64,000 bases of DNA from Papaver somniferum (Eukaryota > Streptophyta > Magnoliopsida > Ranunculales > Papaveraceae), in assembly GCF_003573695.1 (NCBI RefSeq), contig NC_039367.1:29350442-29414441 (forward strand). Reading direction: 5' to 3'. The position numbers and the translations under genes are program-made. The notes below the pieces were generated by a model that was given only the letters and a program-made list of their open reading frames with translations, had not been told where the DNA came from and searched no databases. This document shows, piece by piece, positions 11,795-61,062 of the stretch; within the stretch, counting starts at the first letter, position 1, and each line of letters begins with the position of its first letter.

Positions 11795-11800
11795 AAAACT

Positions 11801-14705: not shown

Positions 14706-14736
<31 letters not shown>

Positions 14737-17078: not shown

Positions 17079-17079
17079 T

Positions 17080-17117: not shown

Positions 17118-17125
<8 letters not shown>

Positions 17126-17734: not shown

Positions 17735-17752
17735 TCCCCGGCAACGGCGCCA
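17735..17752 (-). other. Primer binding site of element X (tRNA-Asp type)
   Basis: On the minus strand TGGCGCCGTTGCCGGGGA follows the LTR end after the 6-base spacer AGTTTT. It is complementary to the tRNA-Asp 3' end, the primer type used by Athila-lineage Ty3/gypsy elements. Confidence 0.9.
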
Positions 17753-17758
17753 AAAACT

Positions 17759-29881: not shown

Positions 29882-29976
<95 letters not shown>

Positions 29977-38213: not shown

Positions 38214-38219
38214 AGTTTT

Positions 38220-38237
38220 TGGCGCCGTTGCCGGGGA
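38220..38237 (+). other. Primer binding site of Y (tRNA-Asp type)
   Basis: TGGCGCCGTTGCCGGGGA after the LTR end and the 6-base spacer AGTTTT, identical to X. Confidence 0.93.
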
Positions 38238-38958
38238 CTTGGGTCTGTGTTTTTTATTAGCTATTTTTGCATTTCACTGCATAGCATTTGCATCTGCTTC
38301 ACTTCATTTGCTGTTGGACCTGCTGTTCTGAACCTGTTTTTCCTCTGCTGGGACGCCACCAAGGAAAAGAACCAAAACCCAACTGGGTTTTTGCAACAAT
38401 ATCAGAGCAGCTGGGCTGTGCTAAAAAGGTAAGCCTAAACCCATTCCATTGAGAGAACCCAACCTGTGGGCTTCCAAATTTCTTTAATTGTGGGCTTGTA
38501 ATAATTAACCCAATTTTTTGGGCTTTTTATTTTTCTATTTTGGGTTTGTAATAATTTATTTTTGGGCTTGTTGTTTAATTTGTGGGCTTGTATTTATTTT
38601 GTGTGGGCTTGTTTAAATTCTTCCATTGGACTTGTATTTTGTATTCTGGGTTTAAACCCAGCTGAGCTTATAACCGATTGTGGGCCGCAGCCTTCCTTCC
38701 ATTCCATTAGAGGACAAACAGTGGGCTTGCTCCCATTCAAAAACCAAATTTTATCCAAAAAAAAAAAAAAAAAAAAACCAAAATTTTCTTTTGCTCCCAA
38801 TTCAAAAACCAAATTTTACTTGCTCCCATTTTAAACCAAATTTTTTCTTTATCTCCCATTTCAAAACCAAATTTTCAAATGTATCCCATCAAAACCAAAA
38901 TTTTCCCAAAAATCCAAACCCATTAAAAACCAAATAGTGGGCTTTGTGTCATTTCAAA

Positions 38959-40452
38959 ATGGGCCAACCTCATGCTCTCCATGAATACATGTATCCATCA
39001 ATAAAAATTCCATTATCATGTATTGTATTACCTCAAACCAATAACCCTTTTAAAATAAATGCAAGCATGATACAAATACTTCCTATATTTCGAGGGTTCG
39101 AGTCTGAGAACCCCTACACTCATGTAAGAGAATTTGAACAAATTTGTCGGACTATGCAACCTGATCATTTGTCCGAAGACTCTCTGAAATTGCGTTTGTT
39201 TACATTTTCTTTAAAGGAAAGGGCCAAAACATGGTTTTACGGTTTGAGACCACAATCAATCAACACTTGGGACCAACTCACAGATCTATTTTTCAAAAAA
39301 TTCTTTCCACATCATAGGACCATCGCTATTCGTCAAAGTATCAATTGTTTTGTCCAATTGGATGAGGAAACTGTTTTTCACTATTTTGAACGTTTTAATG
39401 ATTTGTTGAGTGAATGTCCGCACCATGGAATTGAGAAGTGGAGACTTGTCGTCATCCTCTATGAGGGACTAGACTTTAAATCTCGAACCATGGTTGAGTC
39501 TATGTGTAATGGTGAGTTTATTGATAAATCTGTGGATGATGCATGGAATTTTTTAGCCGAGATTGCAGAGAAAACCCATCAATGGGAATCCGTTAAGGAA
39601 ACAGGAACAACACCACATGATATGAGTCACCCTCATGAATTAGAGTTTTATTCTTGTAATAGCTCCGACCTTAGGATTGAAAATAATCCTAGATTGCAAA
39701 ATGCCTATCATGATGATGATGATGATTATGATGTTATGTTAGAAGAACATGTCTATACTAAAAATGTTATGGAACCTTTGGGTTCAAATACATTAGGCTT
39801 CTCTGCCCCGACCTTAATGCATGATATTTCTTCTAGTATTCCATGTGATGTTTCCCCTGATGTGCCGATACACGAGAATAAATCTGTTGATGATGTTTAT
39901 AATTCTGATTGTGATCTTGCCAATTGATTGATTGATTGTGAGCATGATGTGACATGTGTAGATGAGTTAGGAGATTTTGATTTGATTGATAATGATATGC
40001 CTATTCTTCTACCTAAGTCACAATCTGATGGCCTTCCACCCAACCTAGATTTGGTTTGTACCCATATTGTCAAACCGATTTTTCTGAAAATTCCTAATCT
40101 AGGATTGGAACTGTGTGCTTCCCAAGTCCTCTTGGACTATTTTGCTTCAAAATATAACACTTTTAAAGAGCCACAGTTGGAATGCATTTCTTTGCCCATC
40201 CCGAAAACAGTCCATTTTCAGTTAGACCTTTTGAATCCTGAACCCCTAAAATTAAAAGATTTTGTGCTTAAAAGTAAACCTGTTGAAAAATTTTGGTTTA
40301 GGGGTGATTCATTCGGTTTTTCACTCTCACTCCCATTTAAGTCCAATTTTAGTGTTTTGAAACTTTGTATGTCTTTACACTTTTTCTTTTGGGTTGATCC
40401 TCAACTCTTTAGACTTTTGGTGTATGGCGAATTTTTGTATATAATCCAGTAG
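38959..40452 (+). CDS. Y gag-like protein, one in-frame stop
   Basis: From ATG 38959, 322 codons run to TGA 39925-39927, and the same frame continues to 40452 (174 more). Residues about 35-215 form a retrotransposon gag (capsid) domain: FRGFESENPYTHVREFEQIC, KERAKTWFYGLRPQS, HYFERFNDLLSECPHHG. An acidic linker (HDDDDDYDV) follows, then a C-terminal domain shared with X and Z (LPPNLDLVCTHIVKP, LELCASQVLLDYFASKY). It ends in a hydrophobic stretch. No zinc knuckle or protease. The upstream in-frame TTG at 38944 is unlikely as a start. The TGA aligns with a Leu codon in X, so it is probably a mutation. Confidence 0.88.
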
Positions 40453-41242
40453 ATAAAATTTCTTAAAAAACCCTTTTGTTCCTTTTGTATATATTTTGCT
40501 AATCCAATATGATCTCGGCTGAAATATGTTGGATTTTTTGCCTTGAATAACGGAGTTTTAATTCTGCTTTCGCCGTACAATCGGGTATTCTCTCTCCTTT
40601 TACTCTACTCAGCATGTCCCTTTCCATATGTTGCATTTTAATTCTTTCCATAGTTTGAAACATTGAGGACAATGTTTAGTTTAGGTTTGGGGGTATAGAG
40701 TAGATACCATGATAATTTGCCATAATTGAAAACGAACTCCTTCTTCTTTTTGAAAAAAATTGAAAAATTCCAAAAAAATTGAAAAAAATCAAAATTCAAA
40801 AAAAATTAAAAAAATTGAAAAAAATCATAAAAATGGAGCTCATTTACCTTGAAATGTTGACTCTTGTGCAAATATGTATTTTTATTATTAGGAGTCTTAG
40901 TCTAGATATTTAGGCACCCTGATTCTAGCACAATTCACATAGTGATAAGAAATTTGCACGCGCACGATCTACCAATACATGTATGGCCTCGATCTTCAAG
41001 GTGTTGGATAGGAAGTTACGATTGCCAATCACTTTAGAATACTGAACGAAACTTGACTAGCTTGTTCTTTGGTTGGTTGGGATAGAAGGTGGAGGTTACA
41101 TTAAGAAAGACAACCATCGAATTTAACTGGGTGCATCAAAAAGGGCTACCTCTTGCAAAGTGTCATGTAATCTTTTGTTTCCTTTTGTATGTATCAAAAG
41201 TGTTTCCTTGTAAAAAAAAAAAAAAAAACGATGTATATATTC

Positions 41243-41274
<32 letters not shown>

Positions 41275-41917
41275 TATCAGAAAAATACAAAAAAATCAAG
41301 TATTTATCAATTCCATCATCTCTTGTTCCAAAAATAAAAGAGAGTAGTCAATGTAAATAAGAGTCATGTAAATAGTCATCTTTTGTTGTTTCATTGTAAT
41401 AAGCAAGGAGGGTGTATGCCATTGATGTACAACGCGAGCAATTGTGAAATACCTCCAACTCATTCACAATTCTCGTAAAGTCCGGACAGCTAGCTAGATT
41501 TCGACCTCAGTTCTTAGCCTGAGAAACTATCTCTTGGTGATTAGTAGTCATAACTTCAGATCTTTCTTTACACATGTGTAGATACACTTTACACTCTTAT
41601 CACATGTCTTTTTCTGTTATCAGTGCTAGGATTGTGCCTTCGATAGCTAGATTGACATCTCCATTTTGCTGTGAGCTTAAACTGTTTTGCACATGTCACA
41701 TTTGATGGAATATGAGCTTATATTTTGTCCTTAGGTTTTGTAGGCACACCTCTGGTAAACCTTCACGAGACTTCAACTCGTCCACTAGGGACACTAGTGG
41801 TTTAAAAGCTTAGTGCATACGCTAAATGCATTCGAGAGACCAGCGACAGTGGTATAGTTAGGATTTCCTTAGTTTTGTTTTACTTGAGGACAAGTAAAAT
41901 TCAGGTTTGGGGGTATT
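40453..41917 (+). mobile_element. Untranslated 3' region of Y
   Basis: Non-coding, with A-rich runs (40740-40820, 41212-41265). It ends in AGGTTTGGGGGTATT (PPT, 41903-41917). The ORF at 41089-41337 is partly homopolymer and probably not real, although its first 30 codons recur in X and Z. Confidence 0.65.
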
Positions 41918-44718
41918 TGATGAGTGCCAAATATTGTATATATTTTATCCCTTTTTGTTGGCATTTACTCATCTTTTGTGCATTAATTCTACATTTTATC
42001 CCATATTCTGTATTTTCATTGTTTTCAAAAATAAATATTTTTCTTACTTAATTTTGCATTTTTAGGTAATAAATAAAGTCTGGAATACTTGCGGAGCGGA
42101 AAAGAGCAGAAAAGTAGTGAAAAGCCGGGAGAAATCACGCAAGGAAGCCGCGAAGAATGGTGCGCACAACCTCATTTTCTACACACAAAAACGCCTCCGT
42201 TCTCAGCCATCAGATCAGTTCTCAGAAGCATCCGATGGTCGCTCCTTCATAGAGCATCAAAATCTGAAGTCTCTGCCAAGCACCACAGCGCTGAAATTCC
42301 AAGCCTTCAGATTAGATGGTAGTTGAATCCAACGGTCGCTCCCTTGCTGTTCATCAACGTTTGATATCTCCGCCTTACACTACAACACCTAACCTCAATC
42401 TTCGCCGTTAACTTTGTTGTATTTCACAATCCAACGGTCGAAGTGATTCATCTCTCATACCACCGTTAGATCCACCTACCATCTTCACATCCGACGGATC
42501 TCCTCGCTGCTCATCAACTTCAGATGATCCCGCTCAACACCTTAGCCATCAAACCCATCGACCCAAACAAACACCCACCTTCTTCTTCCCCAAAACTCAT
42601 TTCCCCCAAATTTCTCTTCTTCCCCCGACATTTGCAGAGACACCATGTCCTGCCACCGCCTGCAACTCCACTGCCACCACCATCTCTTCCATCACCACCT
42701 CCACAACCAGCCGACCAAGAGACCTATCGAACCCCCTAGTCTATCTCTCTCCCTCATAGCTTCTTCTCACATAGGTGCTAAGATTAAGAGAGGCAGGCTT
42801 AGGGTTTCGCTCCAAGATAGGGTTTGCAGTGCAAAGAAGACGGAGAATAGGGGATTTCGAGCAGCGTAAAGCCAGTACAAAGCATGGGTTGGGTCGAAAT
42901 CATCCAATTGGTATGTCAAATTTGATTTTCCCCAAAATCAATTTAGGGTTTTCAAAATTAGGGTTTGTAGAAAATTTAGGGTTTGTTGTAAACTATAAAT
43001 ATGGATGTTGTTGCTACTGTTAGGGTTGTTCTTGGGCTAGCCAAGATTCCCCCAAAATTGGGTTAGTTTAGGTTTAATTTCAGTTCTTGAATTTCAATTA
43101 GATTTCAATTTAGGGTTTCAATTTTAATTCCCTGTTATGTTTCAATTTCAATTTCACTGCATATGTTACAATTGTTCTGTTAAAATTTGTACTCCTGTTT
43201 AATCATGTGTTCTGTTAAAATTGATGTTCCTGTTAATGTGTGTTGTTTATATGTTTTGTCACTGTTAGTGCCATGTAATGTTTAGTGTTAAGTTTGTGCA
43301 CTGTGAAATGATGGAATGCTAGGCTAGAAGCCTTTGAAGCTTTGATTTGATTGTGTAATGGAAGAAATCAGTGCTCATAGAAAGCTGATTATCTTGACAT
43401 TCCTTTTGTATGCTTAGGTGCATTGTGTTGATTGAATAGTGGGGAGAAACTAGTGCTCACTAGTGACAATGAGCAAGCTAGTTCTCTTCCCACTCTAGAA
43501 GAATTCCTTAGCCTTGCTCTGTTAGCTTCACCATCTCCCTTGCCCTTGGCTTAGGCCTTGGTTCACTTGCACTGTTATCTGATTGTTGTTGTTTAGTTTC
43601 TTCATTTTCTCCATTGTCTTTCCTGTTAATTGCCGTTGTTTTTCTTTACCTTGCTTTTCTGTGCAGTTGCATATCTTGCATAATTTTCTGCCATTTGTAT
43701 CTGTCTACCACCTGCATCTCATGCTGTAGTTAATAGCATTTTAGCATATGTAGTTGTAACTTAGTAATCATTTTAGTCTTGTAAATATTAGTTAGTAATC
43801 ATCTGTGGTTGTTCATTAACTTTGCTACTTAGCTATACCTTGCATCCTAGCATTAGCATTCTGTTCTGTATCATTATCATTTCCATTCTGTGTAGCTGTA
43901 GCATCACTGCATCATCTTAGACATTTGCATAATCTCTTCTCACTTGCCTTGCACTGCTGCATTGCTTTTCTTCCTTGCTTGTGCTGCTGTCTTCTTGGCC
44001 TTGTGCTGCTGTGCACTGCTTGTGCAGCTGCTGCTGCAACCCATCTGCCCTGCAACCTTGCTGCTACTACTTGCAGTCTTGCTACTGTTGCTGCCACTCC
44101 ACCTCCCTTGCAGCTGCCCTGCTACCACTGCTGCAGCTGCCTTTTCTTTCCACTCCTGCTGCTCCACTGCTGCTGTTGTTGTGCTGCTCCACTGCTGCTG
44201 CCTTTTCCCTGCTGTTGCTTCCTCTCCAAAGCCCAGCTTTCAAAGCTCAAGTTCAGTCCAGTTCAAGGCCTAGTTCTCAGTCCACTACTAAGCCCAATTC
44301 ACAAGTGAACTGTTGAGCCCAAGTTCAGTTCACTGTTAGTCCAAAAGCCCATTGTAAATTGTTGTAAGCCCAAAGGCCTAGCTAAACCAAGCCCAGTTTC
44401 TAAGACCAAAAGCCTAAGACCAAACCAACTGAGTCCAAGGCTCAGTTCAATTCAAAGGCCCAAGGCCTAAAGCACTTCATCATTATAAACCAACCAACTA
44501 AGCCCAATAGCAAATTTAGAACCCAAGATAGCTAGAAAACTCCAAAACACACCCAGTCTCTGTGGATCGACCCGTACTTGCACGAGCTACAACTGACGAC
44601 CGTGCACTTGCGGTATTACTGTAGGCCCGCGTTTTTATTGCGCTTAATTTTATACACATATCCGGGCCCACCAAGTTTTTGGCCGGGGATAATTTTTACA
44701 CCTCTTTGAGGCCTGCCA
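41918..44718 (+). repeat. 3' LTR of Y
   Basis: 2801 bp, differing from 35414-38213 at only a few sites. It ends GCCTGCCA at 44718. Confidence 0.95.
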
Positions 44719-45290
44719 GATGGACATTCTGGCTACAACCAAGTAGCCCTGGCAGAAGAAGATCAGCCACACACAGCGTTCTACACCCCACATGGCCTTT
44801 ATTTCTACACTAGAATGCCCTTCGGACTTCGAAACGCAGGGGCAACATACCAAAGAATGGTCGATGCTATCTTCAGGCCATGGATTGGTAGTACCTTAGA
44901 AGTCTACGTTGACGATATGCTTGTCAAAAGTAAGCTGCGCAAAGATCACCACCAGGATCTGAGAGATATCTTCTAAGCAATGAGAAAACAACACATGAAA
45001 GTGAATCCATAGAAATGTACTTTCGGCGTCACCTCGGGGAAATTCCTCGGGTATCTGGTAACAAAAAGGGGCATTGAGGTAGACCCAGTGAAGATTCAGG
45101 CCATAGTAGAAATGCCATCCCCGAAGAATTTAAAAGAAGTGCAGAAACTCAATGGGTCCATAGCAGCCTTGGCAGATTTATTGCCCGATCCTCGGACAAA
45201 TGCAAACATTTCTTCAATATTCTCAAAAAAGGGAGCAAGTTTGAATGGACCGCAGAATGCAAAGAAGCCTTCCAAAAAATCAAAGAACAC
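44719..45290 (+). pseudogene. RT1 reverse transcriptase, 3' part, with stops
   Basis: Continues RT from the Y insertion: SGYNQVALAEEDQ, FYTRMPFGLRNAGATYQR and the catalytic YVDDMLVKS. Stops TAA 44974-44976 and TAG 45010-45012 and at least one frame change around 45170 disable it. Other RT1 domains continue from 45245. Confidence 0.92.
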
Positions 45291-47092
45291 CTAGCTTCAA
45301 TTCCGATCCTGATGAGGTTTTGGCATTATACATAGCAGCAACAGAAGACGCAGTCAGCGCAGTGTTGGTCAAAACCAATACGAAGATAGAACAGCCTATC
45401 TATTACGTCAGTAAGACCCTCAATTCCGCGGAAAGGAACTACACAAAGATCAAACAGCTTATCCTAGCATTGGTATGGGCTACTCAAAAGATGAGAACCT
45501 ACTTCCTAACTCACTTCGTCCGGGTCCCATGTAAAGCACCACTGGAAGCAGTCCGCAAAAGCGCGGGAAAAGTGGGCAGAATAGCCAAGTGGAACACCCA
45601 CCTGGAACAATTCAACATCATTCATGAAATTCAACATTCTCGAAAATCCCAAGTTTTGGCGGATTTCTTAGTATACCTCCCCCTGGACAACGACGAAGAG
45701 ATTAAGGGAATACCAGAAGCCGATGAAGAAAGCAAGGATCCAATGGATATCCTCGAACCCGTGAGTCAAAGACAATGGGAAGTCTTCGTCGACGGTTCCA
45801 AAAATAAGGAAGGAGCAGGAATAGGCATTGTCATCACCACCCCAACCGGAGAAAGGATTGTACATGCACTCAGGTTAGAATTCAAAGAGCATACCAACAA
45901 CATCGTCGAATACGAGGCAGTTGTACATGCCCTCCGTGTAATAATAGAAATGGGGGTAACCGATGTAAGACTGGCAAGTGATTCGCAGCTTGTCATACGG
46001 CAAATAGGGCTCGAGTACAATGTGTACGATGACACCCTCTCCGCTTACATGGCCTTGGTCCAAACATTGGCATCACAAATTCCGAACATCAAGTTCCGGC
46101 ACTTATGCAGAAGGGATCTCAGGCACGCGGATGCCCTAGCATATATATCATCCATGCTGAAGGATAAAAGCGTCGAAGCTATTAAAATAACAAGGGTATA
46201 CGAGCCTTCGATTGCATCTCAATTCTCCTTCGCTACCAATCAAGATACAGTGGAAGAAAATATCGAAGACCAGGTAGGAGAAGACATCCATAACGATTTT
46301 GACGAAGAAGATATCCTGTCAAGAGAAAATCAAGACGAAGACTTCAGCAACGAAGATGATTGGAGAATGGTGATCCATGCGTTTCTCGAAAAGGGAAGCT
46401 TACCCGCAGATCATAAACAATCTAGGAAAATACTCTCCAAAGTAGGAAGATATGATCTCCGGGATGGGGCCCTGTACAAGAAATCCTTCCTCGGACCGTT
46501 ACTACGTTGCTTATCCCGGAAAGAGGGGCATCGAATTCTAAACGACATCCATTATGGTGACGCAGGGAATCATAGCGGCATGAGATCACTAGCCGACAAA
46601 GCAAAAACGCAAGGATATTACTGGCCCACAATGATACAGGATGCCGCAAGGATGTCCCGACGGTGTGAAGAATGTCAGCGCTTCGCCAAAAAGATACACG
46701 CACCGGCAACAATGTTAAATTCTGTAGATAGCCCGTGGCCATTTGCAAAATGGGGCATAGATATCGTCGGGCCTTTCGTCGAAGGGTCAGGGAAAAGAAG
46801 ATTTTTTATAGTAGCCACTGACCACTTCAGTAAATGGGTGGAAGCTAAAGCCTTAGCCAGGATCAGAGACGTGGATGTGTTTACTTTCATATTCCAGAAC
46901 ATCATTTGCAGGTTCGGAATACCAGCAGAAATCGTGTCCGATAATGGTAAGCAATTACAGGGGAAAAACATAGACATGCTCTTCGATACTTTCAAAATAA
47001 GGAAGAACAAATCCACCCCCATATACCCTCAAAGCAATGGACAGGCGGAATCCACTAACAAGACCCTCGCCCTTATACTCAAAAACAATTAG
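45245..47092 (+). CDS. RT1 dual RNase H and integrase
   Basis: 615 codons, polyprotein internal. Residues about 20-140 are the usual gypsy RNase H (LALYIAATEDAVSAVLV, ILALVWATQKMRTYF). Residues 178-305 form a second, archaeal-type RNase H (FVDGSKNKEGAGIGIVI, EYEAVVHAL, SDSQLVIRQI, HADALA). An acidic linker follows, then integrase: HHCC zinc finger (H436, H443, C474, C477) and core with D506 (GIDIVGPF), D567 (SDNGKQ) and E602 (NGQAEST). RNase H removes the RNA template; integrase inserts the DNA. The frame is lost at 47090 by what looks like a one-base deletion in an A run. Confidence 0.93.
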   Translation: MDRRMQRSLPKNQRTPSFNSDPDEVLALYIAATEDAVSAVLVKTNTKIEQPIYYVSKTLNSAERNYTKIKQLILALVWATQKMRTYFLTHFVRVPCKAPLEAVRKSAGKVGRIAKWNTHLEQFNIIHEIQHSRKSQVLADFLVYLPLDNDEEIKGIPEADEESKDPMDILEPVSQRQWEVFVDGSKNKEGAGIGIVITTPTGERIVHALRLEFKEHTNNIVEYEAVVHALRVIIEMGVTDVRLASDSQLVIRQIGLEYNVYDDTLSAYMALVQTLASQIPNIKFRHLCRRDLRHADALAYISSMLKDKSVEAIKITRVYEPSIASQFSFATNQDTVEENIEDQVGEDIHNDFDEEDILSRENQDEDFSNEDDWRMVIHAFLEKGSLPADHKQSRKILSKVGRYDLRDGALYKKSFLGPLLRCLSRKEGHRILNDIHYGDAGNHSGMRSLADKAKTQGYYWPTMIQDAARMSRRCEECQRFAKKIHAPATMLNSVDSPWPFAKWGIDIVGPFVEGSGKRRFFIVATDHFSKWVEAKALARIRDVDVFTFIFQNIICRFGIPAEIVSDNGKQLQGKNIDMLFDTFKIRKNKSTPIYPQSNGQAESTNKTLALILKNN

Positions 47093-47595: not shown

Positions 47596-47967
47596 GAGCA
47601 ACGCAGCTTTGCATCTGCGTGAAGAAGACCAGAAGAAGAAGGCAGCGTGACCGCTCTACATGTTTCTATCTCTGGACGAGGAATTGCAGGCCTCAACCTA
47701 TCAATCAAACAAGCTTTCTAAAATTCAAATAAACAAAACCTATCAACAATATTGGGGAAAGCAGTTAATCTACAATCTCTCAGGGCTCCCCCATCAGTGT
47801 CCATAAGTGTAAGACCAGGGGGAAGGCACCCAGCAGAAAGAGATACCCAACCAATCTTAAGGCAACGGGTCGACGGAATGAGTGTATGTAAATATTTTAA
47901 CCCCATATCCTAGAACGTTGCATCGGCCCCCACCGTCTGGGATGCCGCGGTCTTCCTGCTGCGGTCT
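47596..47967 (+). other. Spacer between pol and the antisense gene
   Basis: No coding region on + . Sense and antisense transcripts would end facing each other here. Nothing recognisable. Confidence 0.5.
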
Positions 47968-50900
47968 CTACTTAGATGATGCCGCCCCATCAGCAGGGTT
48001 GTTCCGAAGAGTTGAAGGGACGCTCCCACCATATGAGGGTCCCGAGGATCCAGGCAAGGAGGAAGGTGATGAGTGCTAAAAAGTGCATATTTCTATATAT
48101 TTTTCTTGGCATTTAACTCATCTTTTGTGCATTAATTCTACATTTTATCCCATATTCTGTGTTTTCGTTGTTTTCAAGAATAAATACTTTTCTTAATTAA
48201 TTTTGCATTTTTAGGTACTAAATAAAGCCTGGTTATCTCACGGAGCGAAAAGAGCAAAGGAACGGCAAAGACTCCCGCAGAAAGGCAGCGAAGAATGATG
48301 ATTGCAAGAGCCGGATCAACTAGAAGTGGGCTTGAAGAGGAAGAATTGTTCTTAAAGAAGATATGGGCTTGGCATACCCAAGGCCCAAAACCCTTACCCA
48401 AATCCATTTCCATTATCCATACCCATTTCCATGAGAGCCGTCAGATTGGATCCATCTCATCATCCAACGACCGCCTCATCATTGTGCATCAAAATCCGAA
48501 GCTCCTGTCAAACACCATGGTACCTAACTCCATCTGAAGCCGTCAGTTTTGTTGTATCTCATAATCCAACGGTCGCTACATACCTCTCCATCGTAGCCGT
48601 TCGATTCAATCTATATGAGATCATCCAACGCTCTTTACTCGCTGTTCGTAAAATTTCTTTATCCCTGCTTCACACCCTAGCAACCGAACACCTACACCCC
48701 AAACAAACAGACCCTAATCTCATTATCCATCGAGCTCTCTTCTCCCAAAATTTCATCTTCTTCTCCCACTGCAACTTCTTCCCCGACCATGGCAGAACTG
48801 CTCTCTGCCTCCACCTCGAGCTTCACCACTTCCACCTTCACCCGACATCCCAGAAACCAAGACCCATCACTCTAAACTCTATCTCTCTCACCTCTATCTC
48901 ATTCACCCTATGAGATAAATCTAAGAGAGCTAGGGTTTGAGTACCAGTCGACATGAGCATCAGAGAGTATGGGAAAAGAAGGAGAGGACGAGAAGGAAGC
49001 ATGGGTCGAGCACAGGGGAGACAAATTCAGAGAATCAGTGAGTTTAATTTCCAATTTAAAAATTAGGGTTTCCAATTTAGGGTTTCTGAAAATTTGGGTA
49101 TTTTGTAATACTATAAAAGGGAAGTGTTAGGGATGTAGAAAGTATGCCTGGATTAGCCAGAGCACCACCAAGAGGCCTGGAATAGCCAGGACCTCAGCTG
49201 TTAATGTTGTTTCAATTTCAGTTCATTTTAATCTTCAGTTGTTTCATCAAATTCATCATGTTCTAGTTTATTTGCTAAGGGGGAGATGAAATCATGATGC
49301 TTCTGCTAATTTAATCCAAGCTAGATATTGTGCTTGTTGTGCTGAAATGTTTAGGATAGTCTTAATCAAAGCACTTTAGTTGTGATTAGAACATCCTTTA
49401 GGTTGTTAAAACACCTAAGTGGCTTCTCTGTGGGTAGTTGCAGTGTGAGAGCCCCAACTACTACTAGGATTAGAATTATCTTAGTGCCTTTAGCTTCCTT
49501 TCTAACCCAACCCTTTGATGAGCAACAGGCATAGAACCTCCACTGCCATCTAGTTAGTCAGTTGAGCCAAGAAGCTCATTGATAACTTTAAAAGGGACAA
49601 GAGCAGTATTGAACTGAAATTAACTTAGTCTAGGTGAAATGGTGGAATCTAATCCCTAGTCTTCACCCAAAATCCCTCTTTCCTTTACTGTTTCTTGTTT
49701 TTGTTTGATTCCCTTTACTTCTTTGCTGTCACTTCACTGCCTTAGGCTCGTTTCCCTTGTTTCATTAGCTCACTGCCACTGCTACACTTAGAGATCTAGC
49801 TTAGCTAGGAAAACTTCATAACACCCCAAGTCCCTGTGGATTCGACCCGTACTTGTGCACTCACTGCAACAACACCGTGCACTTGCAGTGTCACTGTAGG
49901 CATCCATTTATTCATCTTATTTACACATCTATATAAGCGTACCAAGTTGCTGTTGTGCTGTTGCTCTGCTGTGGACCTGTGAACCTGCAAAGCCTGCTGT
50001 TGTGCTGTTGCTGCTGCTGCTGATCTGCTCCTGCTGCTAGGCCTGAAGTGGTGCTGCTGCCATTCATAAGCCAAGCCCAACTGGGCCTTGAGTGTTGAAG
50101 CCAAAGCTTAGGATGATCCAAATCCCAACTGGGCTTTTGCAACCAAACTGAGCAGCTGGGCTGTGCTTAAGCAAGTAATCCTAAACCCATTAAGAGAACC
50201 CAACCTGTGGGCTTCCATTTTTAATTTGTGGGCTTGTAATAATTTTTTCCATTTTTCTGTTGGGTTTGTAATTAATTTCTTGTGGGCTTGTTTGTTTAAT
50301 TGCTTGTGGGCTTGTGGTGTTATATTGATTTGGGCCTGTAGTTTTAAATTAGAAAAACTGAACTTTTAAAAGCCCAACTGGGCCTCAGACCAAACAAGCA
50401 ACAGTTGGGCTATTTCAAAAGCTACATTGGGCTTCAGTTTACACATTGTGGGCTTAGTTCACCTTCCCTTGGCAAAGCAATTTCTCCCACCAATTTGGGC
50501 TTGCTCCCAACACTAAAACCAAAATTCTTGCTCCCAATACTAAAACCAAAATTTTTGCTCCCAATTAAAAACCAAATTTCTTTTTCAAACCCGACAAAAC
50601 CAAATATTACCCATAAAACCAAATTTTTCCCAAAAATCCAAACCCATTAAAAACCAAATTTTGGGCTTTGTAACATAGTTACTTAGCTTTTGAGCCAAAT
50701 CATGTCTAGATCTTGGTCTACAGTTGGGGAATACAACAAATCCCTTAGAGAACTTGCGTATGGACATACTCCACGTTATGAACCTCCCATGGACCATGAT
50801 GTCAATAGTTATAGGAATTATTATGGACATTTTCAAAGTCCCGAGCCTCAATACATGAACCCTAATAACTATTCACACATGCATCATTCACCACAACGTG

Positions 50901-53900
50901 AAAATAAACATTTTGCTAGTGCCTCACTCACACAATCATCACTGATCGATCAATTAGAAGCTCGAATCGCAGCTTTAAAAATGCAATCACATGAGGAATC
51001 TGTCACATCTAATTTTCTTAGGCAACCTGAAATCTATGCATGTCCCGCATGTGGTAGTTTAGACCATCCTGTTGAGAATTGTCATATGTTGCATAATTTT
51101 AGGAAATCTAGAGAAAATCCAAGGTATGAAATGCCCATAAATTATGAGAATGGTAGTCATTGGGACCATAATCAATCCTTTGAGGGTTGCGATCAATATT
51201 TTGTAAACCCTAATGACCATGCACACATGTACCATCCACCACAATTTGAACATGAAGAATTTTGTACTCCCATGAATTTAGACTCCACCAAAGAAGCTTT
51301 AAGACTCAGTAAGCAAAACTTTGATAGATCTACATCACGAATTCATGCATATTTAGACCAGATTTTGCTTCACCTACAAAAGGAGGAAATTCATGAGGAA
51401 ATGTATGTTGTCCCTAATGAAGTGTCTAGTCCCATTCATGTAAATGATGTTGAATATGAACCTAATTTAGAGGACCATGAATCGACTAATGACACCACCA
51501 CTGTTAATGAGGACCAATATGCATGCTACCATGATGATGATTATGATGATTATGATGATATGTTAGAAGAACATGAAAATATTGTGGAACCTGTTGGTTC
51601 AATAACATATGGCTTCTCGCCATCGACCTTCATGAATGTTGTTTTATCTAATACTCATTGTAATTCATATGATTTTGATATTGACATGGGATTCGTACAA
51701 TTATTCTGCGAAGATGAGCATGACATAGGAATAGTTGAATCTTCTGTAGACACTAATGATAATATGCATGAAAATATATTTGATGTGTCTGATTCTCTAC
51801 CTAGGTCACATTGTGATATTTCTTCTGATTTGCCGATGCATGAGAATAAATTTTTTGATGACTCTGATTGTGATCTTGCCAATTTGTTTGATGATTGTGA
51901 GCATGTTGTGATACGTGTAGAAGACTTAGGAGATGTTGATGTGATTAGTAATGATGTGTCTATCTTCCTACATAAGTCACAATCTGATGGCCTTCCACCC
52001 AACCTAGATTTGGTTTGTACCCATATTGTCAAACCGACTTTTCTGAGAGTCCCTAATCTAGGTTTGGAACTGTGTGCTTCCCAAGTCCTTTTGGACTATT
52101 TTGCATCTAAGTATAATATCTTTGAGGAGCCACAGTTGGAATTAGCATGTTTGCCCGTCCCTAGCAAAGTTCATTTCGAGCTAGACCTTGTGCATGATGA
52201 ACCCCCAAAACTGCGAGATTTTGTTTCCAAAATTTTATCCGTTGAAAAATCCAGGTTTGGGGGTAGCTCATTTTGTTTCACAGTTTCACTTGCGTTTCTT
52301 TCCTGTTATATTTGTGTGAAGCTGTTGAAACCTCTACACTTTGTCTTTTGAGTTGATCCTCAACTCTTTAGATTGTTAGTGTATGGTGAATTTTTTGTAT
52401 ATAATCCAGTAGATAAAATTTCTTAAAAACCTTTTGTTCCTTTTGTATATATTTTGCTAATCCAATATGATCTCGGCTGACATATGTTGGATTCTTGCCT
52501 TGAATAACGGAGTTTTAATATTTCTTTCGCCGAAATCGGGTATTCTCTTTCCTTTTTCTCTACTCAACATGATCCTCTTCATATGTTGTATTATAATTTT
52601 GTTCATATTTTGAAACATTGAGTACAATGTTTAGTTTAGGTTTGGGGGTGAAAAGTAGATACTTTGATAATATGCCATAATTGAAAGAAAAAAAAAGAGC
52701 AGAACTCCTTCTTTTTTAAAAAATTTAAAAATTCCAAAAATTAAAAAATTAAAAAATCATAAAAATGGAGCTCATTTACCTTGAAATGTTGACTCTTGTG
52801 CAAATATGTAATTATTAGGAGTCTTAGTCTAGATATTTAGGCACCCCTGATTCTAGCACAATTCACATAGTGATAAGAAACTTGCACGCGCACGATCTAC
52901 CAATATATGTATAGCCTCATCCTTGAGGTGTTCTATCGGAAGTTTTAGTTGCCAATCACTTTAGAATACTGAACGAAACTTGACTAGCTTGTTCTTTGGT
53001 TGGTTGGGATAGAAGGTGGAGGTTACATTAAGAAAGACAACCATCGAATTTAACTGGGTGCATCAAAAAGGGCTACCTCTTGCAAAGTGTCATGTAATTT
53101 TTTGTTTCTTTTTGCTTATGTATCAAAAGTGTTACCTTGTTAAAAAAAATGTATATATTCAGAAAAAAAAAAAAAATCAAGTATTTTTCAACTCCATCCT
53201 CTCTTGTTCCAAAAATAAAAGAGAGTAGTCAATGTAAATAAGAGTCATGTAAAGAGTCATTTTGTTGTTTCATTGTAATAAGCAAGGAGGGTGTATGCCA
53301 TTGATGTACAACGCGAGTAATTGTGAAACACCTCCTACTCATTCACAATTCTCGTAAAGTCCGGACAGCTAGCTAGATTTCGACCTTGATTCTTAGCCTG
53401 AGAAACTATCTCTTGGTGATTAGTAGTCATAACATCCGATCTTTCTTTACACATGTGTAGATAAACTTTACACTCTTATCACATGTATTTATTTGTTATC
53501 AGTGCTAGGATTGTGCCTTAGATAGCTAGATTGACATCTCCATTTTGCTGTGAGCTTAAACTGTCTTGCACATGTCACATTTGATGGAATCTGAGCTTAT
53601 ATTTTGTCCTAGAACTTTGTAGGTACGTTCTAAGAAAACCTTCACGAGACTTCACTCGTCCACTAGGGACACTTAGTGGTTTAAAAGGCTTATTGCATAC
53701 GCTAAATGCATTCGAGAGACCAGCGACAGTGGTATAGGTAGGATTTCCTTAGTTTTGTTTTACTTGAGGACAAGTAAAATTCAGGTTTGGGGGTATTTGA
53801 TGAGTGCTAAAAAGTGCATGTTTCTATATATTTTTCTTGGCATTTAACTCATCTTTTGTGCATTAATTCTACATTTTATCCCATATTCTGTGTTTTCGTT

Positions 53901-56900
53901 GTTTTCAAGAATAAATACTTTTCTTAATTAATTTTGCATTTTTAGGTACTAAATAAAGCCTGGTTATCTCACGGAGCGAAAAGAGCAAAGGAACGGCAAA
54001 GACTCCCGCAGAAAGGCAGCGAAGAATGATGATTGCAAGAGCCGGATCAACTAGAAGTGGGCTTGAAGAGGAAGAATTGTTCTTAAAGAAGATATGGGCT
54101 TGGCATACCCAAGGCCTAAAACCCTTACCCAAATCCATTTCCATTATCCATACCCATTTCCATGAGAGCCGTCAGATTGGATCCATCTCATCATCCAACG
54201 ACCGCCTCATCATTGTGCATCAAAATCCGAAGCTCCTGTCAAACACCATGGTACCTAACTCCATCTGAAGCCGTCAGTTTTGTTGTATCTCATAATCCAA
54301 CGGTCGCTACATACCTCTCCATCGTAGCCGTTCGATTCAATCTATATGAGATCATCCAACGCTCTTTACTCGCTGTTCGTAAAATTTCTTTATCCCTGCT
54401 TCACACCCTAGCAACCGAACACCTACACCCCAAACAAACAGACCCTAATCTCATTATCCATCGAGCTCTCTTCTCCCAAAATTTCATCTTCTTCTCCCAC
54501 TGCAACTTCTTCCCCGACCATGGCAGAACTGCTCTCTGCCTCCACCTCGAGCTTCACCACTTCCACCTTCACCCGACATCCCAGAAACCAAGACCCATCA
54601 CTCTAAACTCTATCTCTCTCACCTCTATCTCATTCACCCTATGAGATAAATCTAAGAGAGCTAGGGTTTGAGTACCAGTCGACATGAGCATCAGAGAGTA
54701 TGGGAAAAGAAGGAGAGAACTAGAAGGAAGCATGGGTCGAGCACAGAGGAGACAAATTCAGAGAATCAGTGAGTTTAATTTCCAATTTAAAAATTAGGGT
54801 TTCCAATTTAGGGTTTCTGAAAATTTGGGTATTTTGTAATACTATAAAAGGGAAGTGTTAGGGATGTAGAAAGTATGCCTGGATTAGCCAGAGCACCACC
54901 AAGAGGCCTGGAATAGCCAGGACCTCAGCTGTTAATGTTGTTTCAATTTCAGTTCATTTTAATCTTCAGTTGTTTCATCAAATTCATCATGTTCTAGTTT
55001 ATTTGCTAAGGGGGAGATGAAATCATGATGCTTCTGCTAATTTAATCCAAGCTAGATATTGTGCTTGTTGTGCTGAAATGTTTAGGATAGTCTTAATCAA
55101 AGCACTTTAGTTGTGATTAGAACATCCTTTAGGTTGTTAAAACACCTAAGTGGCTTCTCTGTGGGTAGTTGCAGTGTGAGAGCCCCAACTACTACTAGGA
55201 TTAGAATTATCTTAGTGCCTTTAGCTTCCTTTCTAACCCAACCCTTTGATGAGCAGCAGGCATAGAACCTCCACTGCCATCTAGTTAGTCAGTTGAGCCA
55301 AGAAGCTCATTGATAACTTTAAAAGGGACAAGAGCAGTATTGAACTGAGATTAACTTAGTCTAGGTGAAATGGTGGAATCTAATCCCTAGTCTTCACCCA
55401 AAATCCCTCTTTCCTTTACTGTTTCTTGTTTTTATTTGATTCCCTTTACTTCTTTGCTGTCACTTCACTGCCTTAGGCTCATTGCCCTTGTTTCATTAGC
55501 TCACTGCCACTGCTACACTTAGAGATCTAGCTTAGCTAGGAAAACTTCATAACACCCCAAGTCCCTGTGGATTCGACCCGTACTTGTGCACTCACTGCAA
55601 CAACACCGTGCACTTGCGGTATCACTGTAGGCATCCATTTATTCATCTTATTTACACATATATATAATCCTACCAGCAGGTACTGGACGATGCGGATAGC
55701 TCTTCACGAGGCCATGCTCGGTCTTAAGGCCAAGCTCAATCTTCTCCAGCATCTTGTTTGTCTCCTCAGCCAATTGAGACCGAGCCTTATGCATAATAAC
55801 TGTCGTCCTCTGCTGGGCTTGGGATAACAACGAAGATAGACAATTCACTTATTTAGAAGCAGCACCAACGGCCTCCTCGCGGCATGCCGCCAAACTCTTA
55901 AAATGATCAGTCTGTTCTTCCTGCCGCGCTAAGGAAGATTGAGCCTTTTCAAATTTTTCATTTGCAACACGGAGTTGTCCCTCGAGCTCTGAAAAAGACA
56001 ACACCAGGGAGTTAGCACAGAAAAGACACAATCACACTCGATGAAATAGGGTTATACCTTCGACACAAGCCGAAGCCTCTTCATACTCATTAATAACCGC
56101 ATCTCGCGCTTCATCAAGATGGTCATATTCCGCGGATAATTTCTTATAATCTAGTTGAAGGTTGGTGAGAGTAAATTTACTGGCATCTAATTCTACCTGC
56201 TTCATCGAATCCATGTGACGAAGGTGGTTGACTTCGTTGTTTATTTCTGATACCCCTTTGCTAAGTCTGTACATACATACTTCGAGATTTCTCTCAGACT
56301 CAGGCTGGCGGGATATTTCAGCGCGAGACGCAGAAAGGGCTTTGCTTAGAGCCCCAACTTCGGCTCTGGCATCGTCCCTTTATCTGGTAAGACACAACAT
56401 GCTCTCCTTAACTCCCGGAAAAGGAAGGGAGCGAGCCTTTCGTAATTCCTCTTCCAGAAGATGTATTCTAGACTCCAACAATGAAGTGCGCTCACGGGAT
56501 TCCCGCATATTCTCACGTGTCCACAGCAGCGTACCATTGAACAAAGTACGGTCATGGTTATACAGATTCTGCATATCAACCATTTGAACATGCCTTGCGC
56601 GCCATCCCTCAGCCCGAGCGTCCCACTTTTTGGCTTCGCTCTTAATTTTCTCGACCAGCTCTTTGATACGAGATTTTTGTCGTGCCCTTTCGTTTCGAAG
56701 ACATATCAGCTCGAGGACGCCACCCACTGGAGATAGGGTGGGGAGACTCAGAAAGAACAACTAAGTAGTATAGAGGAATTACGACGAACTGCGAGGGTAA
56801 AAGAGGAAAAAGAACCAAACCTGTGAAAGCTGAAACTTGGAAGCGAGTTTGCTCTAACTCAGCGCGAACGGCAGCAAGCTCTGAACGAAGACCAGCCTCC

Positions 56901-59391
56901 GCTTCACCCAGCCTTTCTTTCTCTTTAAGGCTTTTCTTCAGTTCTTCTATTTCCACCTCAGCCGCAGATAATTCCTTTTCTCTGTGACGAAGCTTAGCCT
57001 CCAGCTTCAAAGATTTCGCTTTAAAGAATTGATACAACACATGGTTACAATGCTCACTCCTTATCATCTACACATCAAAACGACAAACATTATTATACCG
57101 AAGGATTCAATCGTCACGAAGAGATATGTACGAAGACTTACCTCCAAGACACGCTGCTGAGGAAAACCATATTGGTACCCATCGGCTATGGCCATCATAT
57201 CCGCGACAGAAGTAGGAGGCTCCGATATGAGGGTAGCTTCGGGAACACTCAAGCTTTTCCCCCACATCTCAGGTAGCCGCGCCTTGGAAGATAGTTCCAT
57301 CATCCGACAGGTATAAGCATCGGAATCCTTTTCACCAGCAACCACCGGGGCAGGATGAGGGACAAATAGCAGACCCTTTTTCTTGATCCAATCCATTATG
57401 GCGTCCTCACCCTCAAACGTCACCGAATGAGGGAAATCCTCGGAAGGCGAGTCAACCACGGACTTCCCCTTTGCTGATATTACCCCATCAGCACAAGTTT
57501 CGGCATCAACATGCGCATCATGATCATCAGCGCCCCCATCCTGAACAACAACGTCTTCCTTACCAGAACCCCCGAGCACATCCCAATCATCATTGGGGGA
57601 AAGCAGAGAGAAGTCTTCAGGAAAATCGAGAGCATCGTCAAAGAGTTCCCCTGCGGAATAAATCCTGTCAAAAGAGAACTCTTGAGAAATGGTGGGGAGA
57701 GTTTCCGCAGCATCACCAGCTGGAACAGACATATCAGCGATAACACCGCCGTCAGCTACCGCGGCATTATTTCTCCCCTCATCACCATCACAACCCGCAC
57801 CAATATCCACCTCGACATTAGGAGGGGAAGTATCAGTGCGTTCTTCCCCATCAAAAATCTCCTCATCCTCGGCAAACTCTTCGTTCACCGGACTGGTAAC
57901 TTCTTCATGAACCTCAGCCTCACCCGTCACAATGGTAGAAGACTTCTTCGGCCCAATCTTTTCTTCTTCGACACCTGCAAACCAACACGTTCTACAAAAA
58001 GAGTTATTTTTTTTCTCGAACAGTTTTGATTTTTAAAGGAGAGGCTCGGCCAGAATCTGCAATACCCAGACCTTGGAAGTAGTGGCACTCTTCGGTGGAA
58101 GTATAGCACCAGAACCTTCCTCCTCGTCTCCTTCAACGACGTCGAGGGCATAAGGAAAGTTCATGCCTTCGAAATTTAAACGCCAGGGACAGAAATCTCC
58201 ATAACGAGCAGGAGGAGAATCACGTGGCCTGCTACTCTCAGAAGGACGCCAACCGCGCGGACCGGGAATCCAACCGTACGCCCAAGGACCAACAATTTCA
58301 ATAACAGTAGCGTGCCACTCATAATCATGGTCACGCTTGATCCTCTCACGTGCCGGAAAAAGTTTCCGCTGACTAGACCCCTCGGTGCTTGGAACATACT
58401 TCAGTTTGGCATCGCTCACCTCACTTAACAGACGAATTTCGCCACGAGGAGCAGCGAGATTCGGAAGGCTAACACTCCACGGTTTACGGTTCCTACTATT
58501 GACGTAATCACCAAAGGAGTTGTTGAAGTTCTCAGGAGTATACCATTCCCTCTCCGCGGGATTTGGAACGTAACACGTCATCGTCGTCTCCCCCTTACTC
58601 CGCAGATAACACTCCCTCAGTGCACGGAGATAATTCCCCGATAATTGCGACACAGAACGACTGTGAGTATTGGTGGAAGAGCCTTCACGACCAGCAAGCA
58701 CATCGTAATAAAAGGAGTCACCAGACTTGTACAACGGCAGCATAAGACCCGCCTCGAAGGCTCCAACCGTAGTCAACAGGTGAAACTCATCAAACTGATA
58801 CTTCGAGATGAGCTCATAAGTAATATAATCCTCAGGTGCATAGAAACGAACCTCGAAGGCTTGAAGATCATGCTTTTCCTTGAAAACTTCAAGGTCAATA
58901 TGCTTGAACGTAACTTTCTTCTTGCTGACCGAAACGCTGCGTATCACCGGGGCAGCCTCATCCTCTTCCGCGGGATCGAACGAACCAACAAAAGCCTCGG
59001 AAGCTCTTCTTTTCAAAGAAGGATTCTTAGAAGATTCAACTCTCGGGACACCACCTTTGGTGTTCTTCCCTTTGAAAGAAAGTACTGGAGGCGGCGGCAG
59101 AGGGTGCTGCACGGGCAATACAGAACGCAGAGGAGAAACATCAAAGGCGACACCACGAGGAGGTGTCTGCGTACACCTAACGTCATCACGAGGAAGAGAA
59201 ACCGCACGATCGGCAGCGTTTCGAGACCCGGAAGGATTTTTTGAGGGACCCTCTTTCCTAGGAGGAGAGGCCTTCGCCCCAGAAGAAGAAACTCTAATAC
59301 CACGGGGATCCATTTGAGACTCTCTGCGCGGAGGGGATCTCGGTAGACTAGAACCCGAAGTTTGATAAGGAAGCCGCGGACGGTCAGACAT
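47968..59391 (-). CDS. Five-exon antisense gene of RT1 (Tat-type antisense ORF)
   Basis: Proposed exons (minus): A 59391-58072, B about 57974-57142, C 57067-56821, D 56726-56058, E 55988-55681 continuing at 48066-47968 across element Z. B/C, C/D and D/E have GT-AG ends and the codon phases of C/D and D/E agree. A/B fits in frame only with an acceptor near 57960. Exon A: Pro/Ser-rich start MSDRPRLPYQTSGSS, then a globular region at about 170-340 (VGAFEAGLMLPLYKSGD) resembling the 'putative gypsy type transposon' domain (PF04195). B is acidic. C to E are coiled coil (LRHREKELSAAEVEIEELKK). The tail is Pro/Ser/Gly-rich with stop TAG 47968-47970. Stops TAA at 56380-56382 and 55849-55851 break this copy. 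Function unknown; antisense ORFs at this place are known in Tat elements. Confidence 0.75.
48067..49944 (+). repeat. 5' LTR of Z
   Basis: TGATGAGTGCTAAAAAGTGC to ATAAGCGTACCA. TATA-like CTATAAAAG at 49111-49119. It shares blocks with the X/Y LTRs (start, and the TGCATTTTTAGGTA..AATAAA segment) but lacks their PBS-copy extension. The 160-codon ORF at 48431-48913 recurs in the 3' LTR and is not a supported gene. Confidence 0.95.
50702..52351 (+). CDS. Z ORF: zinc knuckle plus family C-terminal domain
   Basis: 549 residues from ATG 50702. It has no capsid domain. There is a CCHC knuckle CPACGSLDHPVENC near residue 120 (C-X2-C-X4-H-X4-C), which suggests RNA or DNA binding. Tyr/Asn/His/Pro-rich repeats lie around it (NPNNYSHMHHSP, NPNDHAHMYHPP). 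A helical segment at about 200-240 and an acidic linker (HDDDYDDYDDMLEEHE) come next. The last 150 residues are close to those of X and Y gag (DLANLFDDCEHV, LPPNLDLVCTHIVKP). It ends in a hydrophobic, possibly membrane-spanning stretch (FTVSLAFLSCYICVKLL). The reading frame is intact, unlike X and Y. Confidence 0.8.
   Translation: MSRSWSTVGEYNKSLRELAYGHTPRYEPPMDHDVNSYRNYYGHFQSPEPQYMNPNNYSHMHHSPQRENKHFASASLTQSSLIDQLEARIAALKMQSHEESVTSNFLRQPEIYACPACGSLDHPVENCHMLHNFRKSRENPRYEMPINYENGSHWDHNQSFEGCDQYFVNPNDHAHMYHPPQFEHEEFCTPMNLDSTKEALRLSKQNFDRSTSRIHAYLDQILLHLQKEEIHEEMYVVPNEVSSPIHVNDVEYEPNLEDHESTNDTTTVNEDQYACYHDDDYDDYDDMLEEHENIVEPVGSITYGFSPSTFMNVVLSNTHCNSYDFDIDMGFVQLFCEDEHDIGIVESSVDTNDNMHENIFDVSDSLPRSHCDISSDLPMHENKFFDDSDCDLANLFDDCEHVVIRVEDLGDVDVISNDVSIFLHKSQSDGLPPNLDLVCTHIVKPTFLRVPNLGLELCASQVLLDYFASKYNIFEEPQLELACLPVPSKVHFELDLVHDEPPKLRDFVSKILSVEKSRFGGSSFCFTVSLAFLSCYICVKLLKPLHFVF
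53798..55675 (+). repeat. 3' LTR of Z
   Basis: 1878 bp, few differences from 48067-49944. It ends ATAATCCTACCA (the 5' LTR ends ATAAGCGTACCA). Confidence 0.95.
58072..59391 (-). CDS. Antisense gene exon A (PF04195-like domain)
   Basis: 440 codons from ATG 59389-59391 to the donor GTCTGG at 58071. Rich in Arg, Ser and Pro for the first 150 residues, with a basic KKKVTFKH stretch that could be a nuclear signal. The folded part then follows, with aromatic residues (SGDSFYYDVLAG, EREWYTPENF). The plus-strand ORFs over it (58645-59244, 58880-59317) are shadows. Confidence 0.75.
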
Positions 59392-60104
59392 GGATGCGAA
59401 GAGGTACAACATAAACAAGTTAGAAACAAACACAAGGACATCGCCAAAGATCAAAAAACCACAAAATTAGCAGTCCATCTCAACATAGCACAGAAACCCT
59501 AAAACTAGCATACATGCTTGAAATTCCCCAAAACCCTAAAACCCTAAACTCAAAAGTCCATTCAATACAAGTAAAACAATGGCCTCCTCGATTTGAGACG
59601 AAGAACAGGGGAAAAATAGCATACAAGCATTAAAAGAGGTTCTTCATCGCAAACAAGGGACGACAGCAGCAGAAATGGGAAGCTACGATACGATCAACAG
59701 CAGAAAATGTACAATCAACACAGCTTAAAACAACAGGAACAAAGAAAAGAAACCTCACCACCACAAACAACAGCAGGAAGAGGACAACAAAACAGAAACA
59801 AAGAAGAAGCGAGCGTGATTAATGCTAAGGTAGAGAGAATTTAATGGTTGAAGAACAAAGAATGAAGACTGACAGGGAGAATGAAATTAATTTTCAAGGA
59901 GAATGAAATTAATTCTTCTTCTCTCCTTAATATACTCGAAAGAAAGAGAAGGAAGTTAATGGAGGAATGGGAAATGTGCCCATTAAATGAGCAGTTAATG
60001 CACGAATAAGAAACATGCAGAAGTATCTAGGAGAAGTTATTAGGAGAGAGGAAGAATATGTAACGTCTGTTTTCTTCAATGCTCCCACTAAACACTCAAG
60101 CCCG
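59392..60104 (-). promoter_or_regulatory. Upstream region of the antisense gene / 3' untranslated part of RT1
   Basis: About 0.7 kb between exon A and the PPT. A-rich, with CCCTAAAACC repeats (59500-59545). If the antisense gene is expressed, its promoter should lie here or in the 3' LTR. I see no clear TATA box on the minus strand. Confidence 0.35.
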
Positions 60105-60120: not shown

Positions 60121-61062
60121 TGTGTGTACATATTTCATCATCGAACACGTGTATATAGGAAGATACGTGGAGAGCATGCAGGAAAAGTCATCAAAACACG
60201 ATGACACACGCCCGTAGCCAAGAAGCCTATCCCGGCGACGTCGGATCTTTGCCCGAACAAATCTAAGGGCAGAAGTTAAAAGATGCACCGAAAACACGAT
60301 GTACTGCGGAGCACCAAATAACTCCCGAAGAGTTACTTTATCTCATCCCCAAAAGAAACTAAGATCAACGGTGAAGAGAAAGTTAACTGTCATGGACGTG
60401 ACAGGGGCAGAAGACACTTGTCTGACACGAGAAGGCGCCTCAACTACCCGCATTAAACACTCTGAGTAGTATACATGTCGATCAACCCGTGGAACGAACG
60501 AGGATGGTTCTGCGTGATCAAGTAATGAACGAAGACCTCCGCGTGATGGACACAAAACACAAGAAGATAAGGTTCCAACGGCCCTCAGAAATGGGTCCCA
60601 CACTCTAACCCTATAAATACCCCCTCTCCACCAAGAGTGAGGGGATCGGAAAAATCAGGGAGAGAAGGAGAGAGAAAGATTGTGAGTGTAAGTTAGTCCT
60701 TTACAATATACAGACCTATGTAAACTCCAAAGTCACTCGACTATCCCTGTAACCATCAAGTATATAGTGAAACAACAACCCCGTGGATGTAGGCCTTAGT
60801 GCTGAACCACGTAAATCCCAGTCTTATTTACATTTCAGCACTTTACATTCGCCTAACGCTCCTTGAGTTTTACTTTTATACTTCGTTTTCTTTATCTTCC
60901 CCTGCGTAAACGCCCCTCGCGATGTTATTAGATGAGGTTATGATAAACCCGAAGATTTTGAGCTAAGGAATCAATGCAATCGTATTATTAGTGCGAGACG
61001 GTACCTAGAGTGCGAACATTATTTATGAACATATAGATGCCTTCGTGATTTACGTGTTCACA
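60121..61062 (+). repeat. 3' LTR of RT1
   Basis: 942 bp, matching 30829-31769 with scattered substitutions; followed by TATGT (61063-61067). Confidence 0.97.

Follow-up and report, generated by a model that had tools for sequence, protein, structure and literature searches.

The stretch of DNA analyzed here, referred to as the window, comprises 64,000 nucleotides (nt) of the Papaver somniferum genome (RefSeq assembly GCF_003573695.1, contig NC_039367.1, forward strand; C10:29350442-29414441). It holds element X (30829-61062), a Ty3/gypsy retrotransposon with long terminal repeats (LTRs) that its pol region assigns to the Tat clade (Ogre/Retand-like), and between pol and the 3' LTR this element carries, on its minus strand, a gene of five exons separated by four GT-AG introns (Table 1). 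The minus strand was read over 59600-55600 and 48200-47500 for this gene. Junctions A/B and B/C are in phase 0 and junctions C/D and D/E in phase 1, and the introns contain 32-45% T versus 24-28% in the exons. When scored with an approximate, home-made splice matrix, based on the plant consensus, the four donors ranked 14, 1, 8 and 4 of 250 GT sites and the four acceptors 21, 20, 3 and 1 of 259 AG sites. A sequence-only reading of the window had proposed such a five-exon antisense gene in a Tat-type element, with codon phase restored at C/D and D/E and with exon E continuing across the later insertion Z into 48066-47968. These proposals were borne out, the gene by the GT-AG introns of other copies and by the domain order of pol, the restored phase by both junctions being phase 1, and the continuation by a direct run-on in 19 of 20 other copies. 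The accompanying proposal of one protein stood in part, in that the multi-exon gene is conserved while the copy in the window is broken. Its exon B has a length that cannot be divided by three, yet the junctions on either side are in phase 0, so that the frame is lost within this exon; in-frame TAA codons moreover occur in exon D (56382-56380) and exon E (55851-55849), and together with Z in exon E this means that the window copy is dead and cannot make one protein.

Table 1. Positions in the window of the antisense gene, its host element X and the elements nested in X; 'copies' are the 20 copies analyzed elsewhere in the genome, and P numbers denote protein relatives
Feature	Position	Strand	Length	Remarks
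Exon A	58072-59391	-	1320 nt	Start codon; 440 codons open; Pro/Ser-rich first 150 residues; conserved head
Intron A/B	57975-58071	-	97 nt	GT-AG in 20/20 copies
Exon B	57142-57974	-	833 nt	Acidic; out of phase in window copy
Intron B/C	57068-57141	-	74 nt	GT-AG in 18/20 copies
Exon C	56821-57067	-	247 nt	Coiled-coil-like; 90% identity with P0004
Intron C/D	56727-56820	-	94 nt	GT-AG in 15/20 copies
Exon D	56058-56726	-	669 nt	Both ends in phase 1; found in P0011-P0013 and missing from P0004
Intron D/E	55989-56057	-	69 nt	GT-AG in 17/20 copies
Exon E, part before Z	55676-55988	-
Exon E, tail beyond Z	47968-48066	-		Pro/Ser-rich; TAG stop; matches final residues of P0004, P0012 and P0013
Candidate TATA box, TATATTAA	59927-59934	-		Between gene and 3' LTR; antisense promoter candidate
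5' LTR of X	30829-31769	+	941 bp	97.2% identity with 3' LTR
3' LTR of X	60121-61062	+	942 bp
pol piece of X	45245-47092	+		Pfam: RNase H, RVT_3, integrase H2C2, integrase core, in order
Element Y	35414-44718			K2P 0.0039; nested in X, in apparent reverse transcriptase (by eye)
Element Z	48067-55675	+		Later LTR element within exon E; LTRs 48067-49944 and 53798-55675; K2P 0.0080

The two LTRs of X are separated by a Kimura two-parameter distance (K2P) of 0.0272, and the element is flanked by perfect 5-bp target-site copies (TATGT/TATGT). The open reading frame (ORF) at 45245-47092 gave Pfam matches to RT_RNaseH (21-123), RVT_3 (182-299), Integrase_H2C2 (426-481) and rve (499-592), and the RVT_3 match is, by its position, taken by us to represent an archaeal-type RNase H. 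The Tat clade with Ogre and Retand is marked by a further RNase H, of archaeal type, placed between the first one and the integrase (PMC6317226), and this order of domains places X in the Ogre/Retand part of the clade. Retand elements are further described as having LTRs of 315-1,194 bp and 2,933-6,566 bp between pol and the 3' LTR, with an antisense ORF in that region (PMC11963269). In X the LTRs are 941 and 942 bp, the distance from the end of pol (47595) to the LTR (60121) is about 4.9 kb when Z is subtracted, and the antisense gene lies there.

The gene was traced through the 2.715 Gb genome assembly using exon A as query, which gave at least 93 scored matches out of 10,531 first-look candidates, and 20 copies besides that of the window, being the best-scoring of the 93 and thereby picked by likeness in exon A, were followed over the whole gene. 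Each intron was bounded by GT and AG in most of these copies (Table 1), with no alignment of introns A/B, B/C, C/D and D/E in 0, 1, 3 and 0 copies, respectively, and another reading in 0, 1, 2 and 3, mostly in copies having large deletions there. Precise loss was seen in none of the 20 copies for any of the four introns. Intron A/B varied between 93 and 111 nt, and 10 of 21 lengths, with the window included, differ from that of the window by a number not divisible by three, while exon A measured 1320 nt in all 20 copies. As judged from the alignment, the length of exon B could be divided by three in 13 of 19 copies, in one of the 13 across a deletion. Z was absent from the exon E site in 19 of the 20 copies, and exon E there joined the tail directly (19/20), with an overlap of 3-5 nt between the two matches, the size expected from a single target-site copy; no tail match to the end of exon E was found in the remaining one, and the stop codon was TAG in 18 of 19. 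An X-type LTR in the same relative orientation lay upstream of exon A in all of 29 other loci and the end of pol lay downstream of the gene in 19 of 20 copies, showing that the gene belongs to the element. Some 280 nt just behind the antisense stop, at 47942-47960, are missing in the window copy and present in most of the 20 others.

Protein searches returned 25 relatives, and every one of these bearing an organism name was from Papaver somniferum. The relative P0004, 661 residues long, is an uninterrupted frame on a short contig whose source, 'lgn', we take to be the Logan assembly. It spans part of exon A, exons B, C and E and the tail behind Z, lacking both Z and exon D, and it thus crosses A/B, B/C and C-to-E in frame with exon D skipped in phase. 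Since exon D is in phase 1 at both ends it can be skipped without loss of frame, and the in-phase reading of C-to-E in P0004 suggests that exon D may be a cassette exon. In the six of the 20 copies that matched P0004 best, the identity in exon A was 85-88% and the matches fell in separate exon blocks, so that P0004 was not derived from the fetched copies. P0011 and P0012 contain the end of exon B followed by C, D, E and the tail, P0013 likewise with pieces missing, and the frames of P0016 and P0020 stop at, or within about 10 residues of, the exon A donor, as unspliced DNA would. When candidate GT-AG pairs around junctions B/C, C/D, D/E and C-to-E were compared with these relatives, each side being scored apart, the predicted pair came first among 37-54 candidates in seven of eight tests (B/C three times, D/E twice, C/D and C-to-E once each); in the eighth, C/D against P0011, it ranked 8 of 37. 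The relatives P0006-P0013, P0017-P0019, P0021, P0022, P0024 and P0025 are NCBI Papaver somniferum proteins under names such as extensin-, PERK-, WAS/WASL-, nucleoprotein TPR- and myosin heavy chain-like, and because these entries match the gene of this element their host-like names are probably misleading.

Junctions at the same positions were also found in more distant loci. A genome search with P0011 gave 251 matches, and among the matches listed there were repeated breaks near residues 94, 188 and 410 with gaps of intron size, those at C3:35830377-35832239 being 51-63 nt. At four distant loci whose main blocks are about 50-64% identical to P0011, the B/C intron was present at the same codon with a GTAAGT donor in three, and the D/E intron was present at the same position with GT-AG ends in all four (71-72 nt, GTATA...).

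With regards to the protein, pairwise ratios of nonsynonymous to synonymous divergence (dN/dS) were determined, leaving out sequences that were out of phase or had more than one stop in the exon. The ratios were 0.32 for exon A (21 of 21 sequences, including the window; bootstrap 0.25-0.42), 0.45 for exon B (10/19; 0.33-0.62), 0.42 for exon C (14/19; 0.23-0.89) and 0.34 for exon D (9/18; 0.23-0.53). The shifted frames of the same strand gave 1.02 and 1.21 (A), 0.92 and 0.98 (B), 1.71 and 0.83 (C) and 0.60 and 1.07 (D), and the frames of the sense strand 0.43-1.49, with the lowest sense-strand values of exons A-D (0.43, 0.66, 0.57 and 0.57) all belonging to the same sense frame. The frame of the gene thus had the lowest ratio of the six in each of the four exons, and the antisense protein is under purifying selection. 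Upon masking of CG and CHG sites the ratios became 0.39, 0.55 and 0.46 for exons A, B and C, with upper bootstrap limits of 0.54, 0.96 and 1.25; the masked control for exons C and D was computed without bootstrap. Introns B/C, C/D and D/E had diverged less (K 0.040-0.050) than synonymous sites (dS 0.08-0.11), and intron A/B more (0.16). Masking brought exon dS down to 0.05-0.07, and the lower divergence of introns than of synonymous sites is likely to reflect splice constraint together with changes driven by methylation at CG sites, in which the exons are richer. A conservative-substitution simulation on the protein relatives, superseded by dN/dS, had found mismatches milder than neutral in 23 of 24 exon/relative comparisons; in 10 of the 24 the effect was strong, with no more than 2 of 200 simulations reaching the observed value, and little came from exon C and the first half of exon D. 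The sequence-only reading had held that sense genomic RNA cannot lose the introns and that splicing is hence confined to an antisense transcript, and had named continuous ORFs in place of the introns, without any signature of selection, as evidence to the contrary. What was found was retention in the dispersed copies, no precise loss in the 20, and dN/dS of 0.32-0.45 for exons A-D against 0.60-1.71 for the shifted frames of the same strand.

The composition of the predicted protein agreed with the acidic middle, coiled coils and Pro/Ser tail of that reading. Exon B contains 22% D+E and 6% K+R; L, A, E, K and R together make up 63%, 50% and 49% of exons C, D and E, giving them a helical, coiled-coil-like composition, with weak matches only to coiled-coil families in a Pfam scan; and Pro or Ser occupies 14 of the 32 residues behind Z. 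A PF04195-like head, which had also been suggested, was rejected, because the Pfam scan gave no match for exon A at E<=1 and, at E<=10, none for any of the 13 relatives scanned. PF04195 was likewise not found in the precomputed annotation of the 25 returned proteins, and a search of PDB sequences gave no match at E<=1. P0002, P0004, P0009 and P0010 have lysine runs close to junction A/B that could be nuclear signals. Upstream of the gene, the octamer TATATTAA at 59934 is the sole TATAWWA-type site on the gene strand before the LTR, and it was identical in 27 of 28 aligned loci (29 examined); it is a candidate TATA box for a putative antisense promoter between gene and 3' LTR. Three TTTAGGG motifs (59503-59548, minus strand) lie in what is presumed to be the 5' leader of the gene, and the interval from gene to LTR contains twelve upstream ATGs.

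Taking these results together, X very probably is a Tat-clade element that permanently carries, in the region separating pol from the 3' LTR, a minus-strand accessory gene with introns. The antisense RNA would start at a putative promoter between the gene and the 3' LTR, an antisense gene transcribed by RNA polymerase II from its own promoter being the simplest account, as is reported for Grande gene23 of maize (PMC7264820), and host spliceosomes would remove the introns from this transcript. Since the genomic RNA runs the opposite way, the introns would there read CT...AC and stay unspliced, so that they would persist through each reverse transcription and survive retrotransposition; their retention in dispersed copies is thus what would be expected. 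The predicted protein would have about 1,160 residues by summed exon lengths, with exon B as in the phase-keeping copies, and omission of exon D would give a shorter form of about 935 residues. The acidic and coiled-coil-like parts and the lysine runs would fit a nuclear multimeric regulator, and our guess is that the protein may be a nuclear coiled-coil regulator of expression or replication of the element, a role like that suggested for retroviral antisense proteins and Grande gene23.

Several observations weigh against this reading of X. Splicing of the four introns, as well as the promoter, is a prediction from DNA, and P0004 may come either from RNA or from a processed DNA copy. Exons A-D were all open and in phase in only one of the 20 copies. 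Among the four distant loci, the B/C intron was not found in one and intron C/D was resolved in none. As to selection, the sample was picked by likeness in exon A, a choice that lowers dN of this exon and may bias its dN/dS downward, with exons B-D not so picked; the values of exons B and D rest on the phase-keeping sequences with at most one stop (10/19 and 9/18). After CG/CHG masking, exon D gave 0.51 versus 0.72 and 1.05 for its shifted frames, a small contrast, and the bootstrap range of exon C (0.21-1.25) extended above 1. Two AlphaFold2 models of the head, finally, had a mean predicted local distance difference test score (pLDDT) of 29.7 and 34.6, a confidence so low that neither a fold nor a function can be read from them.

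Four other explanations were considered. The antisense transcript could be a non-coding regulator, acting by double-stranded RNA or small interfering RNA; its open frames would then be fortuitous or would mirror selection that acts on the sense strand. Antisense transcripts of retroelements can indeed function as RNA, as raised in a 2020 review of antisense ORFs (PMC7264820), but with the dN/dS of the gene frame being the lowest of six in each of exons A-D this explanation appears very unlikely. The next lowest value came, in each exon, from a sense-strand frame; a protein-coding gene and an antisense transcript acting as RNA may, for that matter, be compatible. It is highly improbable that X merely surrounds a captured or nested host gene. 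The five-exon structure is host-like, as are the names of the matching NCBI entries, and an ancient capture may have preceded the spread of the element, every organism-named relative being from Papaver, but at least 93 scored copies in one genome, the upstream LTR of 29 of 29 loci and the downstream pol end of 19 of 20 copies are difficult to reconcile with a gene that is only surrounded.

Equally improbable, in our view, is that the introns are left unspliced, with the gene acting through two or more independent antisense ORFs. A survey of Retand elements listed 104 antisense ORFs in representative elements by means of ORF Finder (PMC11963269), and splicing is here predicted from DNA, but the conserved GT-AG ends, the T-rich introns and the in-frame passage of P0004 across three junctions argue for spliced exons. 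P0004 could also be seen, by its continuous frame, as the ancestral state of an intronless gene that gained four introns later. This possibility was considered extremely unlikely, since what P0004 lacks is precisely exon D, with a splice site on either side, the outcome expected of exon skipping, and since B/C and D/E are found at the same codons in the distant loci, whereby any intron gain would be old.

Compared with known systems, the gene of X is most readily set beside the antisense ORFs of the Retand lineage, including maize Grande gene23, Silene Retand ORF4 and rice RIRE2, which are kept in most copies (PMC7264820; PMC11963269). Antisense ORFs with TRP28 (PF04195) mark Retand elements (PMC11963269), and for Grande gene23 both an own promoter and a nuclear protein were reported (PMC7264820). 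The gene of X differs from the TRP28 antisense proteins in giving no PF04195 match and in having five exons and four introns instead of one ORF; PF04195 is missing also in 2 of 63 tabulated Retand clusters (PMC11963269). With the deltaretroviruses (human T-cell leukemia viruses HTLV-1 and HTLV-2, with HBZ and APH-2, respectively) X shares a spliced, protein-coding antisense gene (PMC10186651). HBZ and APH-2 start in the 3' LTR, and HBZ is a basic leucine zipper protein, whereas the gene of X has four introns and its candidate promoter lies outside the LTR; we claim no similarity in sequence. Host splicing of element RNA is shared with Ogre and with Arabidopsis EVD (PMC6317226; PMC12786077), but their introns are in the sense RNA, only part of which is spliced, whereas those of X lie on the antisense strand, beyond splicing of the genomic RNA, and are in this respect the converse of reporter introns that lie in the sense of the element and get lost (PMC12786077).

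The multi-exon form is what appears to be new here, antisense ORFs in Retand elements and spliced antisense genes in deltaretroviruses being known before. In the Retand survey the words 'intron' and 'papaver' are absent and 'splic' occurs in the reference list alone (PMC11963269), and an open-access literature search did not, among the matches listed, turn up any plant LTR element for which a multi-exon antisense gene had been reported. Spliced antisense transcripts were called for examination in the 2020 review (PMC7264820). The Retand antisense ORFs are a known puzzle, and the survey that established them relied on an ORF finder (PMC11963269); with its conserved introns and the selection measured here, the gene model opens this puzzle to testing, giving exact junctions for existing RNA data and a full-length protein. 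Rather tentatively, we suggest that a whole lineage of plant retrotransposons might carry a multi-exon antisense gene with permanent introns, that use of exon D might yield two nuclear proteins controlling the element, and that ORF surveys might split such genes.

The window also holds further LTR elements. Y and Z, both nested in X, look like related non-autonomous elements with gag-like ORFs, as judged by eye. A Pfam scan of the two short pieces beside Y gave no match, and the 5-mers flanking Z (GAAGG and GCAGG) are alike at four of five positions. Together with a third element at 11793-20052 they have sequence partly shared at 84-96%, two of the three being on the plus strand and one on the minus strand by alignment. 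A long simple repeat, including a stretch read as N, occupies 29389-29985. The LTRs of the third element are both abutted by a direct repeat of 734 bp (11062-11794 and 20053-20786, 99.7% identity), which far exceeds the size of a target-site duplication.
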